Virus record (IMG/VR): IMGVR_UViG_3300031539_000324
Location: 1 to 23,308 of that record
Reading direction: 5' to 3' (one strand)
Length of the DNA stretch: 23,308 nt
DNA from: a virus
Shown: one piece after another, positions 2,573 to 15,917 of the stretch
Numbering within the stretch: the stretch's first letter is position 1
Layout: every line of letters begins with the position of its first letter
Notes under the pieces: generated by a model
Databases searched by the model: none
Seen by the model: the letters and a program-made list of their open reading frames with translations, nothing else
What the model was told of the DNA's origin: nothing
Made by a program: the position numbers and the translations under genes

Positions 2573-2846
2573 ACATTAGCCCCAGGATACTATAACCAAT
2601 AATGTCGATGAGCGTATCAGCTACTTGTTCGTCAACAACGAGCGCTTCTTTTCCGTCCAGATTTTCAAGGCGTAACGACTTATCTGATAGCCTGACAAGT
2701 ACACTTGCTATCCCATGCGCCTGCCAAGCGTCTCCGTAATCCTGGTTTTTAGCATACAACACTTCTACAACACTGTCAAGCACCTCTTGAACTAGGCTCC
2801 TCATCGTCTCTCTATTCACATCAACCAAAGGTGACTTTAGCGCCAT
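2544..2846 (-). CDS. DUF1599 (Nmad1-type) small protein
   Basis: A 100-residue helical protein matching the pattern I associate with DUF1599: a KNQDYGDAW segment at about residues 34-42, a DKSLRLENL helix, then a VADTLIDIIGY segment near the C-terminus. The family has been linked by gene context to phage nucleotide or DNA base modification, and its fold resembles small MazG-like helical proteins; its biochemical role is not settled. The start at 2846 is convincing because AAGGAGAT sits 5 bases upstream. The gene overlaps the preceding Hjc-like gene by 26 bases and the primase by 29, so the three are translated as a coupled set. Its place beside dNTP and replication genes fits a nucleotide-related role, which remains inference. 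Confidence 0.7.
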   Translation of the reverse strand: MALKSPLVDVNRETMRSLVQEVLDSVVEVLYAKNQDYGDAWQAHGIASVLVRLSDKSLRLENLDGKEALVVDEQVADTLIDIIGYSILGLMYENARKGIV

Positions 2847-10470: not shown

Positions 10471-10542
10471 TGTACGTGATGGGACTCGAACCCATGTCTT
10501 CGGCGCGTCCGCTCGATGTTGTTCCGACTCAACTACACGCAC
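10471..10542 (-). ncRNA. tRNA-like RNA with hairpin in place of anticodon arm
   Basis: This 72-nt element has a full 7-bp acceptor (GTGCGTG with CACGTAC, one G-U pair) and discriminator A. The D arm is GTTG/CAAC with GG in the loop, and the T arm is ATGGG-TTCGAGT-CCCAT. The anticodon region cannot form a 5-bp stem with a 7-base loop: only three pairs form at normal register and there is no U33. Instead TCG(A)GCG pairs with CGCCGA around a GACG tetraloop. It would thus look like a tRNA at the elbow and acceptor but cannot decode. No CCA is encoded. It may be a degenerate tRNA or a deliberate mimic. Confidence 0.65.
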
Positions 10543-10550
10543 GAGATATA

Positions 10551-10685
10551 CCCTGTTCGCTGGTCAATCGGTTGAACCAGATTTCTCTGTAGCCGTCAAC
10601 CGATGTACTAAACCACTATAACGGCGAGCCTTATCCAAATGCATCCTAAAGGAGGTAGACAAATTTACTACTCCAACGAACAGGG
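10551..10685 (-). ncRNA. Structured RNA closed by 13-bp helix, possible pseudoknot
   Basis: On the minus strand CCCTGTTCGTTGG (10685-10673) pairs with CCAGCGAACAGGG (10563-10551), 13 pairs with one U-G; on the plus strand that position would be a C-A mismatch, so the minus strand is the structured one. Inside are an 8-bp stem ATCGGTTG/CAACCGAT (10604-10597 with 10574-10567) enclosing CAGA-GAAA-TCTG with a GNRA tetraloop (10589-10578), a 5-bp GCCGT/ACGGC (10625-10621 with 10596-10592) that crosses it to make a pseudoknot, and small hairpins at 10671-10655 and 10653-10644. ACCTCCTTT at 10656-10648 matches the 16S anti-Shine-Dalgarno. GGTTCAA next to the 3' closing strand recalls a T arm. No known RNA family is recognised. 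Confidence 0.6.
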
Positions 10686-10688
10686 CTG

Positions 10689-10761
10689 TGGGGACAGATG
10701 GATTTGAACCATCAACCAACAAGTTATGAGCCTGCTGCTCTGCCAATTGAGCTATATCCCC
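10689..10761 (-). tRNA. tRNA-Met (anticodon CAU)
   Basis: A complete 73-nt cloverleaf. The acceptor is GGGGATA with TGTCCCC and discriminator A. The D arm GCTC/GAGC has loop AATTGGCA. The anticodon stem GCAGG/CTTGT holds loop CTCATAA with anticodon CAU, the variable loop is TGGTT, and the T arm is GATGG-TTCAAAT-CCATC. The paired G1-C72 end and the lack of three G-C pairs under the anticodon argue against an initiator. Elongator Met is most likely; an Ile-decoding tRNA made by lysidine modification of C34 cannot be excluded by sequence. CCA is not encoded (ACA follows). Confidence 0.95.
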
Positions 10762-10855: not shown

Positions 10856-10908
10856 TTGTGGCGGCTGGAATCGAACCAACGATACATGCCCACGACAGCA
10901 TCGCCACA
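10856..10908 (-). ncRNA. 53-nt tRNA-like RNA lacking a D arm
   Basis: A 7-bp acceptor TGTGGCG/CGCCACA with discriminator A and a normal T arm GTTGG-TTCGATT-CCAGC are joined by only 21 bases instead of about 42. Those 21 bases form one hairpin, ATGC-TGTCGTGG-GCAT, with an 8-base loop, so there is no room for both a D arm and an anticodon arm. If the hairpin served as anticodon arm, T33 would precede CGT, but the loop is one base too large. It lies 6 bases after the stop codon of the gene at 10915. Confidence 0.65.
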
Positions 10909-10914
10909 CAAAAA

Positions 10915-11685
10915 TCATTCTTTCCAGTCTGGTTCTTCCATCCCAAGTGCTGCAATTCTGTCTAGAATCTCAGAGGCTGGAATCGAACGGGATTCACACA
11001 GCTTATCACTGGCAAACCTAGCAGAAACCAGGATGTTGTGATACACCGGCACGTTCAAATTCTCCACCGGATGCCATATGTATTGTGTTGCATCCACCGA
11101 TCTGTCCAGAGACACAACAAGAGGATATTCGGTTTCCGGATTGCGATTGATAAACAGCCTGTATTTCATACCTCTTGCGATTGCAGAGTCTAGGCTACTT
11201 CGCCATCCTGTCGTTTCCCCATCTGGCTCAAACGATCTTGCATCCATGACCCTGTATACATTACTGTGATGCTTAGGCGCGTCGAACAGCAGATGTACTG
11301 TAGATTGCACTCCATTACGGATATCAGTTCTTCTTCCAAGCGCATCGAGCAGGTTCTTGCTAAGCCGATGAAAGTACATGTTGGTGCCAGTGGTTGCAAT
11401 TTCGTTAGCGATAACCAACTTTCCAGTGTAGAAATCGCGGTACATCCATACAGAATCGTAGCTGAGTACGGTATCTCCTGCAATCTGAAAGTTCATTATC
11501 AGTGCCGTTTCCGAATCGCGATATTTGGCCAGCACCTCTTCTCCCTTGATGTGTATACCGACGAACCCCTTTATCGTTCCAGATATGTTGAGAGTCAGTA
11601 TACCTCTCGTTGCTTCATCTCTGGGCACTCCATTTGGAACGTAACTATATGGTATCTGCACATTATCCTCCATAGATAAGCTCAT
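10915..11685 (-). CDS. Hypothetical protein heading the RNA-block transcript
   Basis: A 256-residue protein (ATG 11685) that I do not recognise. The first half is rich in beta strands (GILTLNISGTIKGFVGIHIKGEE, split over two strands), and later segments mix strands with short helices; no catalytic motif, signal peptide or membrane segment is visible. The ATG at 11685 lacks a ribosome site, while an in-frame GTG at 11661 has GGAGG 5 bases upstream and may be the true start, giving 248 residues. It follows a strong promoter at 11718-11746 by about 26 bases and is directly followed by the structured RNA block, so one transcript may carry this mRNA, the tRNA-like RNAs and the two small paralogs. 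Confidence 0.7.
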   Translation of the reverse strand: MSLSMEDNVQIPYSYVPNGVPRDEATRGILTLNISGTIKGFVGIHIKGEEVLAKYRDSETALIMNFQIAGDTVLSYDSVWMYRDFYTGKLVIANEIATTGTNMYFHRLSKNLLDALGRRTDIRNGVQSTVHLLFDAPKHHSNVYRVMDARSFEPDGETTGWRSSLDSAIARGMKYRLFINRNPETEYPLVVSLDRSVDATQYIWHPVENLNVPVYHNILVSARFASDKLCESRSIPASEILDRIAALGMEEPDWKE

Positions 11686-11825: not shown

Positions 11826-14800
11826 CTATTTAACAAACGGAATTTGACATGCATCTCCATCGCAGTAAGCATCTACCAGTCTATCTACCGGAGCTACGTT
11901 TTTAATATTCAAATTCTTTAGTTTCGAATAATCAATTTTCATTTCCATTAAGCCGTAGCGAACTTCATTGATTTCCTCGTATGGCATCTGGGTGTACGCG
12001 CCGCCGCTAACTTCTGGCAACATTGAAACTGATTTCAGAGAGTGCTGGTAGTGGTCTAGCGCAATCGACAATTCCTGTGCCGTTGTCGATTCGGGGTTGA
12101 CGCTGATTGTAACTGACACACTATTGTCAGACCAATGGCGTTGCATCATGGCCGCAAGATTAAACTGTTCCCAAATAGTCAAATCTTTAGCACGGCGCAG
12201 ATTGTCTCCGGCATGGATTGGGAATTCAGCCACAACCGTATTTGGCGAATAATCATCTATCTCGATATGAACACCTGCTTCTCGTAAACGTTCTGCCAAG
12301 TGGCTATTATCCGAGAATCGCACACGACGAATGTAATATTCAGCAACAGGATGGTGAACCCCTGGTGTCGCACCGGCAACCAGAGATACCGTTCCAGATG
12401 GCTTGACGGTCGTGACGCGCACGCTCTCATTGACGCCGAACCAGTTGCTATATCTCTTATCGTAGTGCTTGACGTATGAATAACCATCCTCTGCCCACTT
12501 GACAAGTGTTCCCATGCCACGCGATGCGACAAACTGAGCGATGCCAGTCATCGATAGGCCAATGCGACGATTCTGCATCATAAGCTGTCGCGTACCAGGA
12601 TGTGCAATTTTCTCGCTGAGAAGCGTAATGGACTTCCCGTACAAGTATGCAAACTTAATACTACGTGCGAAATCGTAGAAGGAATCGTGTCGATTTGGAT
12701 ATAGCTCTACAAGCGTGCATTGCTTCGTGATTACGTTTCCAAATACACCCATATGTCGCATCGGCTCGTTGAAACAATATGTTGGCTCGCTGTCCGAGAT
12801 TAATTTGATGCTTACAACCCGTTGTCGTTTTGCCCTGCTGATCGGCTTTGAATTTTTATGGGCATGGTTTTCTTGATATTCAGAGCCAAACCGCTCGATA
12901 ACCTTTAGCCTTGTTTTTATTTTACTGCACTCGTAGCTAGGGATAAACATTCGCCACAAATCGTAATTTCTTCGTCCATAATTCGTGATTGTCCCAGTTG
13001 GCGACAACAATCGTATTGTAGCGTGGTTTACCCCGATTCTCCGCAATAGTATTTGCGCATCTCTCAGCTTTTGTTCTGACCCATACAACACATAATGTTG
13101 CGTGTTGGGGTTTTTAGCTATTGAACCATCTGCATCTATCCACCCACCCATGAACTCGGAAATACCATCTGCGTCCATACGCATGATTCGACTAGCAAGA
13201 CCGGCGTCATGATCTCGCAGTTGAACCGCAGTATCCATATCGATTTCCCCGCTAAAGTTTACCCTGCGGAACGGACGTGAATATCCAGCAGAATGCTGCT
13301 CTTTCCACATATTCCAGCCAGCATCTTGTCCTATAAAATATTCGTTCTCCTGAATAACCGCCAGTGCTTTTCTGTTGTCATCTATATATCCGTCACCAGT
13401 AAACCACCCAAGCTCGTATGCGTGTTTGTCACTGGTTCCGCCAGAATCTATTACTTCGAATTTCGGAAGAACCATTCCGACTTCGAGGGAATCCGTCGTG
13501 TGCGTTCGATACTTAGCCTGGGTTTTTGTTTTTGCAATCCATTCGTGTTTTGGGGTCGCATCTAAGTACGAACCATCCGATAGTGTCACCCTGTAAAGGC
13601 TTCCGGTTCCAGCCAAAAATGGAGTAACCTCAGACCACTCTTCTCCGTTCCAAATCTTAACGCGCTTATTAACCAAGTCGGAGATTCGGAATATACCATC
13701 TTCTGTTTGTATTTGCGTATCGCCAGCTACGCATAGCTCACCGCCAACACCAGCGGGCGACCATCCGTACAAAAACTGCTCGCCGCACTGTCCAGTCTCA
13801 ATCCCGCAAGACAACGAGATTCGATGGCTCGTAGGTACAGTACAACAATACACTTTGTCCTCTGTTCCAGCAGGCTCTATCTTGACAACTGTATTCCATT
13901 TTAACGTATATTGATATGTTGTCTTACACGTCAGGTGTAAGTTATCCAATCTGGCAAACTGTATCTGGTTAGACAAAACGATGCTTGCGTGTTGAGCAAT
14001 AGATAAACGCCAGCATTCTTTAGCTTTATATTCTCCATAACCATCGCCAAAATCGCGTATTCCTGCCTCGTGCGACATGGCAAGTTTTGAATGTACTCCG
14101 ATTGACTTTAGTAGTGTTTGTACATCTAATAGAAACTCGCGGCGTACAGATGAAAGTTGATATCCAAATCCATTATTCGTATCAAATGCCGTGCCATCGG
14201 AATCGAAGATTCCAGCAATTAACTCTAGTTTCGATTTTCTATTCCACCCAAATACCTCAAACGGAAGTTTATCTTTATATGTTGTTGCCCACGGCATAAT
14301 ATCATAATCTCTAGCGCGTAATCCTTGGATCACAACCACCGAGCGACCATTGCTGTATTCGCCATCCGTATAGTTTGGCTCGCTAATCATGTCGCTTCTT
14401 CCATCGCGTGCAGGAATCTCGGACAACGATTGCACGATTTTCTCGGCACATACTTTTTTTGTATCGTATAACCATAGCGCCGGTACAGTCCCATGAGAAG
14501 TACCATCTCCAAGCATAAATCCTTTTACATATGCGCCTGCAACATCTAAATCTCCATGAGACTCCGGGGCAGTAGATGATTGTAGTTTATCGCCAGCTAC
14601 AATATCTTTCGCCTGTCGAGAAGTGCCATCGTCAAGAACCATTGTGTGGTATGGCGTAACAAATAGCTCTGTTCCATCTTGAAGCTCAATTCGCAATACT
14701 TTTTGGTTGGTTCCAGTTACCCTAAAGTTGTCAATCGCAACCCACTGGCTACCGTCCCATATATCGGCGGTCTCTCCAACCAAATCAACAATGGGTACAT

Positions 14801-15917
14801 CTCCGTTCTTGGTGCGTATAAGCGTATCGCCACGGAAGCATGGATTAACTCCAGTAGCTAAGTCACGATGATCTTCAATGCCGTTCATACGAGCATACTT
14901 ATTCGCGTTTTCTAACCACACGAATCCAGGCTCGCCATTATCCATAATTCTTTCAACAAACGGCTTGTAATCCATGCCAACGTTAGCAAACACGCTATTG
15001 TTTGAAGACCATCCCCACTCCTTGCGTTCTGGATTCTGCGTGTAATTTTTAAGATTAGCGAACTCAGTATCGAATGGACTTCCAAGGGCAATTTCGCTGC
15101 TTCTCCGCACGTTACCGGCAACAACTACAACGCCAATCATATTCATGATGTCAGTGATGATTCTACCGGAAATGCGATCTCCATGTGCATCGTCCAAAAT
15201 TGTACGAACCTTATCGTGAAGCCACTCCAAAGGTTCATATCCACTAGCCACCCCGCCAAATCCGCGGATTAACGAACCCTTTGGGCGAATCAAAGAGTAG
15301 TCGAATGTTACGGCGTGCTGGACATCGCCATTCGGTATGTAGGACGACACGAGTCGGCCTATCGAATCTGCCCATCCTTCTCGGCTGTCAGGTATGACAA
15401 ATATATTGAGATCGGTATCTCGTGGCTTAACAATCTCTACTAGGCCAGCGCCACGAATATCAAATCCAACACCAACGCCGAGCATCAACATCTCCATGAC
15501 CCACTCAAAGATATGGCCTTTGTGATCTCGAATTGATTGCGTGCTGATGAAACCACAATTGTTCGTTGCCTCTACCATATTACGCTCATGTACTGATGGG
15601 GCACCCATATGATACAATCCGCGTCCTGGTGGACTCCACTTCAAGTTAAACAGTCTATCGTATGCCTCGTGTGCTGACTCTTTTGCTTTATCATCTGACC
15701 ACGGTACACCATGTTCCGATGCGTAATCTTTCTGTATTGTGTACATTCCATTGATAATTCTCTCGCAAGCGTCTGCCCAAGATTCTAGATTACCATCAGG
15801 TTTTACCCTAGCATACGTGCGATAAAATGTCACAGCCCCAAGAGAGCCAAACCCAAATGGCTCTGGACGATCTCGATATCGATCTACAAACTCATGGTCA
15901 AGATGAAAAGATAGCAT
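11826..15917 (-). CDS. nrdJ: Class II (B12-dependent) ribonucleotide reductase with two inteins
   Basis: A 1363-residue precursor of an adenosylcobalamin-dependent reductase resembling the monomeric Lactobacillus leichmannii RTPR; removing both inteins leaves 674 residues. It reduces ribonucleotides to deoxyribonucleotides by a thiyl radical and needs no oxygen or separate small subunit. Seen: NNCGF with redox Cys121, the LMLGVGVGFD segment near 145, an allosteric-site region following it, the catalytic NPCGEQ loop (split by intein 1 at its Cys, residue 360/711), VKPSGTVSLVAGATPG near 1171, and the C-terminal shuttle pair C1352 and C1357 in YCDGDAC. Inteins occupy residues 360-710 and 729-1066. 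The ATG at 15917 has GGGGGA about 7 bases upstream. Its promoter is at 16016-16044. It is translated away from the head genes. Confidence 0.93.
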   Translation of the reverse strand: MLSFHLDHEFVDRYRDRPEPFGFGSLGAVTFYRTYARVKPDGNLESWADACERIINGMYTIQKDYASEHGVPWSDDKAKESAHEAYDRLFNLKWSPPGRGLYHMGAPSVHERNMVEATNNCGFISTQSIRDHKGHIFEWVMEMLMLGVGVGFDIRGAGLVEIVKPRDTDLNIFVIPDSREGWADSIGRLVSSYIPNGDVQHAVTFDYSLIRPKGSLIRGFGGVASGYEPLEWLHDKVRTILDDAHGDRISGRIITDIMNMIGVVVVAGNVRRSSEIALGSPFDTEFANLKNYTQNPERKEWGWSSNNSVFANVGMDYKPFVERIMDNGEPGFVWLENANKYARMNGIEDHRDLATGVNPCFRGDTLIRTKNGDVPIVDLVGETADIWDGSQWVAIDNFRVTGTNQKVLRIELQDGTELFVTPYHTMVLDDGTSRQAKDIVAGDKLQSSTAPESHGDLDVAGAYVKGFMLGDGTSHGTVPALWLYDTKKVCAEKIVQSLSEIPARDGRSDMISEPNYTDGEYSNGRSVVVIQGLRARDYDIMPWATTYKDKLPFEVFGWNRKSKLELIAGIFDSDGTAFDTNNGFGYQLSSVRREFLLDVQTLLKSIGVHSKLAMSHEAGIRDFGDGYGEYKAKECWRLSIAQHASIVLSNQIQFARLDNLHLTCKTTYQYTLKWNTVVKIEPAGTEDKVYCCTVPTSHRISLSCGIETGQCGEQFLYGWSPAGVGGELCVAGDTQIQTEDGIFRISDLVNKRVKIWNGEEWSEVTPFLAGTGSLYRVTLSDGSYLDATPKHEWIAKTKTQAKYRTHTTDSLEVGMVLPKFEVIDSGGTSDKHAYELGWFTGDGYIDDNRKALAVIQENEYFIGQDAGWNMWKEQHSAGYSRPFRRVNFSGEIDMDTAVQLRDHDAGLASRIMRMDADGISEFMGGWIDADGSIAKNPNTQHYVLYGSEQKLRDAQILLRRIGVNHATIRLLSPTGTITNYGRRNYDLWRMFIPSYECSKIKTRLKVIERFGSEYQENHAHKNSKPISRAKRQRVVSIKLISDSEPTYCFNEPMRHMGVFGNVITKQCTLVELYPNRHDSFYDFARSIKFAYLYGKSITLLSEKIAHPGTRQLMMQNRRIGLSMTGIAQFVASRGMGTLVKWAEDGYSYVKHYDKRYSNWFGVNESVRVTTVKPSGTVSLVAGATPGVHHPVAEYYIRRVRFSDNSHLAERLREAGVHIEIDDYSPNTVVAEFPIHAGDNLRRAKDLTIWEQFNLAAMMQRHWSDNSVSVTISVNPESTTAQELSIALDHYQHSLKSVSMLPEVSGGAYTQMPYEEINEVRYGLMEMKIDYSKLKNLNIKNVAPVDRLVDAYCDGDACQIPFVK
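12720..13733 (-). other. Intein 2 (338 aa) with LAGLIDADG homing endonuclease, Gln-terminal
   Basis: Residues 729-1066 of the RNR precursor. Block A starts at Cys729 (CVAGDTQIQTEDG) and block B is near YLDATPKHEW with His791. Two LAGLIDADG helices are visible: ELGWFTGDGYIDD at 835-847 and EFMGGWIDADGSIA at 921-934. Block F/G reads PTYCFNEPMRHMGVFG and ends VITKQ, followed by extein Cys1067. The last residue is Gln instead of Asn, and the residue before it is Lys instead of His. It is inserted only 18 extein residues after intein 1, at GEL|CTLVE. Confidence 0.88.
13788..14840 (-). other. Intein 1 (351 aa) with LAGLIDADG homing endonuclease, Gln-terminal
   Basis: Residues 360-710 of the RNR precursor, inserted exactly before the catalytic Cys of NP|CGEQ. 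Block A is CFRGDTLIRTKNG at 360-372 and block B is ELFVTPYHTMV with His424. The LAGLIDADG helices are VKGFMLGDGTSHG at 464-476 and LELIAGIFDSDGTAFD at 564-579. Block F/G reads KVYCCTVPTSHRISLSCG and ends IETGQ before extein Cys711. The terminal Gln with Gly before it replaces the usual His-Asn, as known in a minority of splicing-competent inteins such as the iridescent virus RNR intein. Confidence 0.9.

Follow-up and report, generated by a model that had tools for sequence, protein, structure and literature searches.

The window, i.e., the whole stretch of DNA analyzed here (23,308 nucleotides), is a 23.3-kb phage contig from a virus record, and the host of the tRNA-like gene described below is a tailed phage, a virus of bacteria. 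The features of the window are as follows.

10471..10542, minus strand: tRNA-like gene of 72 nt without encoded CCA, called as tRNA-Val(gac) by ARAGORN and matched by Rfam RF00005
10536..10542, minus strand: 5' acceptor strand GUGCGUG of this gene, with 7/7 pairs to 10472-10478 (CACGUAC) (sequence, ARAGORN drawing)
10518..10533, minus strand: D arm GUUG-AGUCGGAA-CAAC, 4 bp, with A14, G18G19, and A21 present (sequence, ARAGORN drawing)
10500..10516, minus strand: anticodon arm UCGAGCGGACGCGCCGA, with 3/5 canonical pairs and the nominal anticodon GAC at 10507-10509
10479..10495, minus strand: T arm AUGGG-UUCGAGU-CCCAU, 5 bp (sequence, ARAGORN drawing)
10550..10686, minus strand: putative structured non-coding RNA between two tRNA genes (inverted repeat, RNAfold)
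10688..10761, minus strand: ordinary tRNA gene with a CAT anticodon, Met or Ile2 (ARAGORN; Rfam, 70.6 bits)
11826-15917, minus strand: class II ribonucleotide reductase (RNR) carrying intein and LAGLIDADG domains
Also encoded in the window: ThyX, RecA, RecJ, a NADAR protein, and a GpA-type terminase

The CAT tRNA gene is located upstream of the tRNA-like element in the same direction. The RNR appears to carry two inteins, as LAGLIDADG_3 was matched in two stretches, and its intein-splicing match was slightly below the cut-off. At 10859-10910 (minus strand), an acceptor-like stem (GUGGCG/CGCCAC), a T-arm-like hairpin (GUUGG-UUCGAUU-CCAGC), and one further hairpin were observed without a D arm; the folding z was -2.2, the score against RF00023 was 8 bits (not significant), and a 14-mer of this stretch, GGCTGGAATCGAAC, was found again at 10975-10988 within a coding frame.

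Read from 10542 to 10471 on the minus strand, the element has the sequence GTGCGTG TA GTTG AGTCGGAA CAAC A TCGAGCGGACGCGCCGA AGAC ATGGG TTCGAGT CCCAT CACGTAC A. It scored 50.4 bits (E 2.9e-8) against the tRNA family RF00005, for which the cut-off is 29. The first-pass annotation had described three complete arms, with 7 bp in the acceptor, 4 bp in the D, and 5 bp in the T arm, and this was confirmed by the ARAGORN drawing, with 16/16 pairs formed outside the anticodon arm, as well as by the RF00005 match. The bases of the tertiary core, i.e., U8, A14, G15, G18G19, A21, C48, and the T-loop UUCGA, were all in place. Judged by its sequence, the element is a genuine tRNA-derived sequence, with the cloverleaf and conserved core of a structural tRNA. 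G3.U70 (10540 with 10474) forms the third acceptor pair and A73 (10471) is the discriminator, both being sequence features of an alanine acceptor; the acceptor end appears fit for processing, as had been proposed.

The anticodon arm is of a different kind. A decoding tRNA has a 5-bp anticodon stem, a 7-nt loop, and U33 or a pyrimidine at that position, whereas in the standard register of the element 27-29 pair with 41-43, 30x40 is A.C, and 31x39 is G.G, leaving 3/5 stem pairs, and position 33 (10510) is G in place of U33. Apart from its first base, the arm contains no U at all. The reported absence of the 7-base loop and of U33 was therefore borne out, and G33 together with the incomplete stem supports the proposal that the element is unfit for normal decoding, which appears very unlikely from these features.

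The same annotation had read the anticodon region as a hairpin capped by a GACG tetraloop. This alternative fold, UCG(A)GCG-GACG-CGCCGA, is indeed possible and is the minimum-energy fold of the isolated arm (-6.2 kcal/mol); with the cloverleaf held fixed, the molecule reached -23.9 kcal/mol with the tetraloop arm versus -16.9 with the 3-bp arm and its 11-nt loop. Without constraints, the full-length molecule was predicted to fold most stably into a form other than the cloverleaf (-25.1 versus -23.9 kcal/mol). The hairpin was, however, not better than chance when the arm or its inner sequence was shuffled, as 30/200 dinucleotide-shuffled arms (15%) folded equally well, 18% of shuffled inner sequences reached -6.2 kcal/mol, and 16-18% of random or shuffled inner sequences formed 6 or more bp closed by a loop of no more than 5 nt. 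RNAfold gave 4-nt loops in 13/731 isolated arms of viral tRNAs, mostly ordinary ones. The pairing hence stands as the best local fold, and its reading as a designed or selected feature does not.

For comparison, 731 distinct viral tRNAs were obtained as ARAGORN calls from 113 IMG/VR stretches with the T arm CATGGGTTCGAGTCCCATC and from other fetched loci. Position 33 was occupied by U in 696 of them, by C in 27, by A in 5, and by G in 3 (the element included), i.e., a pyrimidine in 723/731, and one other of the three G33 cases was an evident misparse of a neighboring tRNA. The anticodon stem had 4-5 pairs in 717/731 and just 3 in the remaining 14, and G33 was never found with a full stem. Odd loops were also present in otherwise sound viral tRNAs, with 5 nt in L093 (GGGAA) and L138 (AAGAC), 6 nt in L140, and 20 nt in L047. 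The anticodon arm of the element is thus rare among viral tRNAs, not unique. At L054:959-1039 (minus strand), a viral tRNA-like sequence was found in which a TTCC/GGAA stem topped by a GGCCC-GAAA-GGGCC hairpin makes up the anticodon region; it illustrates a tetraloop-capped tRNA better than the element does. The L093 case (2621-2691, minus strand) is tRNA-Ala-like with G3.U70 and a 5-bp stem under its 5-nt loop, without U33, and its phage carries many tRNAs and a full tmRNA.

An intact remainder around a broken anticodon arm could be taken as a sign of selection, and the first-pass annotation had read the element as a tRNA mimic. Neutral decay was simulated by introducing random mutations into 283 canonical viral tRNAs; those that were still detectable by ARAGORN and had a comparably broken anticodon arm were kept. 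Among the 59 qualifying cases, all other pairs were retained in 42% and the core bases too in 29%. Since neutral decay and detection bias together yield such a remainder in 29-42%, it is no evidence of function; intactness as a sign of selection was rejected, a conserved mimic could not be upheld on this ground, and no selection need be invoked.

Relatives of the element were sought in several ways. The one same-lineage contig in IMG/VR (IMGVR_UViG_3300031565_000153) matches the window at 99.83% identity across 13.5 kb, and none of the 23 differences falls within the element; with so small a divergence, the identical copy says little on conservation. No near match to the window was found in the phage collection, and IMG/VR searches with the terminase, RecJ, and RNR proteins returned only the same lineage and one distant phage sharing the RNR (L005, G002), which has no tRNA genes. 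D-arm patterns recovered only the same lineage in IMG/VR and nothing in bacterial genomes. The exact 17-mer of the anticodon arm occurred in four other viral contigs, at chance level and with no tRNA at those sites. In all, no diverged homolog carrying the element was found in IMG/VR, the phage collection, or bacterial genomes. Among the full-length viral tRNAs sampled, the tRNA-Asp(GUC) of L136 came closest to the element; its acceptor register differs from that of the element, and L136 and the window have no proteins in common, so that a descent from tRNA-Asp is just a lead from sequence likeness.

What is directly seen is a tRNA ancestry with intact acceptor, D, and T arms and a broken anticodon arm. 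On balance, it is probable that the element is a non-decoding pseudo-tRNA, i.e., a tailed-phage tRNA gene whose decoding function has been lost, possibly retained as a processing signal. Substitutions in the anticodon arm (the 30-40 and 31-39 mismatches and G33) would have abolished the 7-base U-turn loop, and the rest of the element would either not yet have decayed or still serve an anticodon-independent use. Such a gene presumably does not decode and is either being lost or persisting merely as a shell competent for processing or aminoacylation. The other odd-armed viral tRNAs (L093, L138, L140, L054, and L047) are what a low-level background of decay would be expected to leave. Against decay stand the perfect tertiary core and the rare G3.U70 pair, as read from the sequence, and the adjoining RNA, whose strong predicted folding suggests that the region is not junk. 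A selected, non-decoding shell is an unlikely alternative; it would be processed by RNase P, perhaps alanylated through G3.U70, and would punctuate the transcript of the 137-nt RNA or act as a decoy, a plain hairpin having taken the place of its anticodon arm. Both hints of function, G3.U70 and the 137-nt RNA, were found after the fact, and neither is proof.

The 137-nt stretch (10550-10686) is closed by a 14-bp stem, GCCCUGUUCGUUGG/CCAGCGAACAGGGU, of which 13 bp are the reported inverted repeat. Its RNAfold energy was -49.3 kcal/mol (z -3.89), with 0/200 shuffles as good, and no Rfam family was matched at 10550-10686; from the predicted folding, it is probably a structured RNA. The sister contig carries the stretch with one change. 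A decayed tRNA at 10560-10640 was considered and rejected, as the alignment to the 731 viral tRNAs was at shuffle level, and the folding prediction favors assigning this segment to the 137-nt folded RNA.

The order of tRNA, structured RNA, and tRNA-like element hints at a possible role of the element as a processing tag for the 137-nt RNA. RNase P needs the acceptor and T arms but can do without the anticodon; a cut at the 5' end of the element would create the 3' end of the co-transcribed RNA, the tRNA-Met would mark its other side, and the anticodon arm would be free to drift into any hairpin. The perfect acceptor and T arms, the succession of tRNA-Met, 137-nt RNA, and element in a row on one strand, and the closing stem and shuffle result given above are consistent with such a role, but no homolog conserving the arrangement was found and no promoter or terminator was recognized at the unit. 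We regard processing punctuation as a rather doubtful explanation.

A smaller chance is given to an element that is aminoacylated and does not decode. G3.U70 and A73 are determinants of alanyl-tRNA synthetase (AlaRS), which does not read the anticodon, and charging by AlaRS would make the element a decoy or an amino-acid carrier akin to the tRNA-like domain (TLD) of tmRNA. G3.U70 was present in 24/693 viral tRNAs, namely, in 15/18 tRNA-Ala and in 9/675 others, the element among the latter, and odd anticodon arms also occurred in two of the eight other non-Ala cases (L093 and L030). BLAST of the 3' half of the element against the phage collection matched many tmRNA 3' ends and unannotated, tag-less tmRNA-like phage RNAs, with weak E-values. 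However, one C-to-U change suffices for G3.U70, which was noticed post hoc; the second acceptor pair is U-A, where tRNA-Ala typically has G-C; in its D arm, the element follows normal tRNAs and not tmRNA; and L093 resembles tRNA-Ala by BLAST, so its G3.U70 may be plain inheritance. An aminoacylated, non-decoding mimic is improbable.

A working tRNA-Val(GAC), or another decoding tRNA, would require modification and ribosome binding to tolerate G33 and two stem mismatches. Although ARAGORN places the anticodon at the right position, the rarity of G33 (one of its three occurrences a misparse, none with a full stem) and the 7 kcal/mol advantage of the tetraloop arm over the open loop make this very improbable. 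An assembly or sequencing artefact, which nothing favors except the oddity itself, is scarcely credible and largely refuted, since an error of one assembly is unlikely when the identical element lies in a strain differing at 23 sites elsewhere.

The search with the 3' half of the element also led to 78-90-nt phage RNAs corresponding to the tRNA-like domain of tmRNA without the tag-coding region. The 78-nt RNAs comprise a type A (L019, L020, L023, and L029), a type B (L021, L026, L027, and L030), and the following members in Streptomyces phages.

L142:601-678, LuckySocke
L143:601-678, GiJojo
L144:601-678, pSt2308
L145:575-652, BRock

At 78 nt, these RNAs are too short to hold a normal tag-coding part. 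The two IMG/VR types scored 51.6 and 59.2 bits against RF00023, and those of LuckySocke, GiJojo, pSt2308, and BRock 57-64 bits, the gathering cut-off being 47 bits. Six aligned members showed an invariant AAAGCCGCACGCGGA loop, an invariant G3.U70, and nine pairs with two-sided changes, and the P2 helix covaries. In the Streptomyces phage records, the tag-less RNAs have no tmRNA annotation, and GiJojo has a hypothetical protein over the RNA. An 89-90-nt tmRNA-like RNA was found in Microbacterium Dismasvirus phages (L013:745-833 of Quenya, L014, L022, L025, and L028) immediately before tRNA-Gln; it has G3.U70 and the same 3' acceptor and T arm and is unannotated in Quenya and Rona. L028 is the sole such locus with an RF00023 match, at 34.7 bits and below the cut-off. 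Between its tmRNA-like RNA and its tRNA genes, two tandem stretches like bacterial Y RNA were observed (L028:508-641, minus strand; RF02553, 43 and 33 bits; cut-off 69). No description of tag-less tmRNA-like phage RNAs was found in searches of open-licence papers; as judged from sequence, they are conserved and largely unannotated in actinophages.

The element is a single case of how phage tRNA genes lose decoding yet stay detectable, and it calls for caution in annotation, as tools name it tRNA-Val though it is unfit for valine codons. If it were a processing tag or an alanylated mimic, a phage would be using a tRNA without any anticodon role, which would be relevant to the unsettled matter of why tRNA genes are retained in phages.

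Structured non-tRNA RNAs in a phage tRNA cluster have a precedent in T4, where RNAs C and D are embedded among tRNAs that decode; the 137-nt RNA resembles them, a likeness drawn by description only. tmRNA (RF00023) combines a TLD, in which the D loop lacks a stem, with the P2 helix and a tag-coding part. The element is similar to this domain in being non-decoding and in its G3.U70, A73, T arm, and 3' acceptor sequence, but its D arm is canonical with 4 bp, its total length is 72 nt, and no RF00023 match was found at the element, RF00005 having been matched instead. Among bacterial pseudo-tRNAs, tRNAOther of Bacillus cereus carries a Trp (CCA) anticodon and does not join polysomes (PMC3399842). 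Like tRNAOther, the element has a tRNA fold, is found by tRNA finders, and would have a role outside translation or none; unlike it, the element lacks an anticodon loop, is phage-borne, and is known here from sequence alone. Phage tRNAs with anticodon-loop changes evade anticodon nucleases and were proposed to remain in translation (van den Berg et al., 2023, PMC10264068). The element is likewise a phage tRNA with an altered anticodon loop, and the immunity to anticodon nucleases suggested for it follows trivially from the missing loop; in contrast to those tRNAs, it should not decode, and evasion would then bring no translational benefit.
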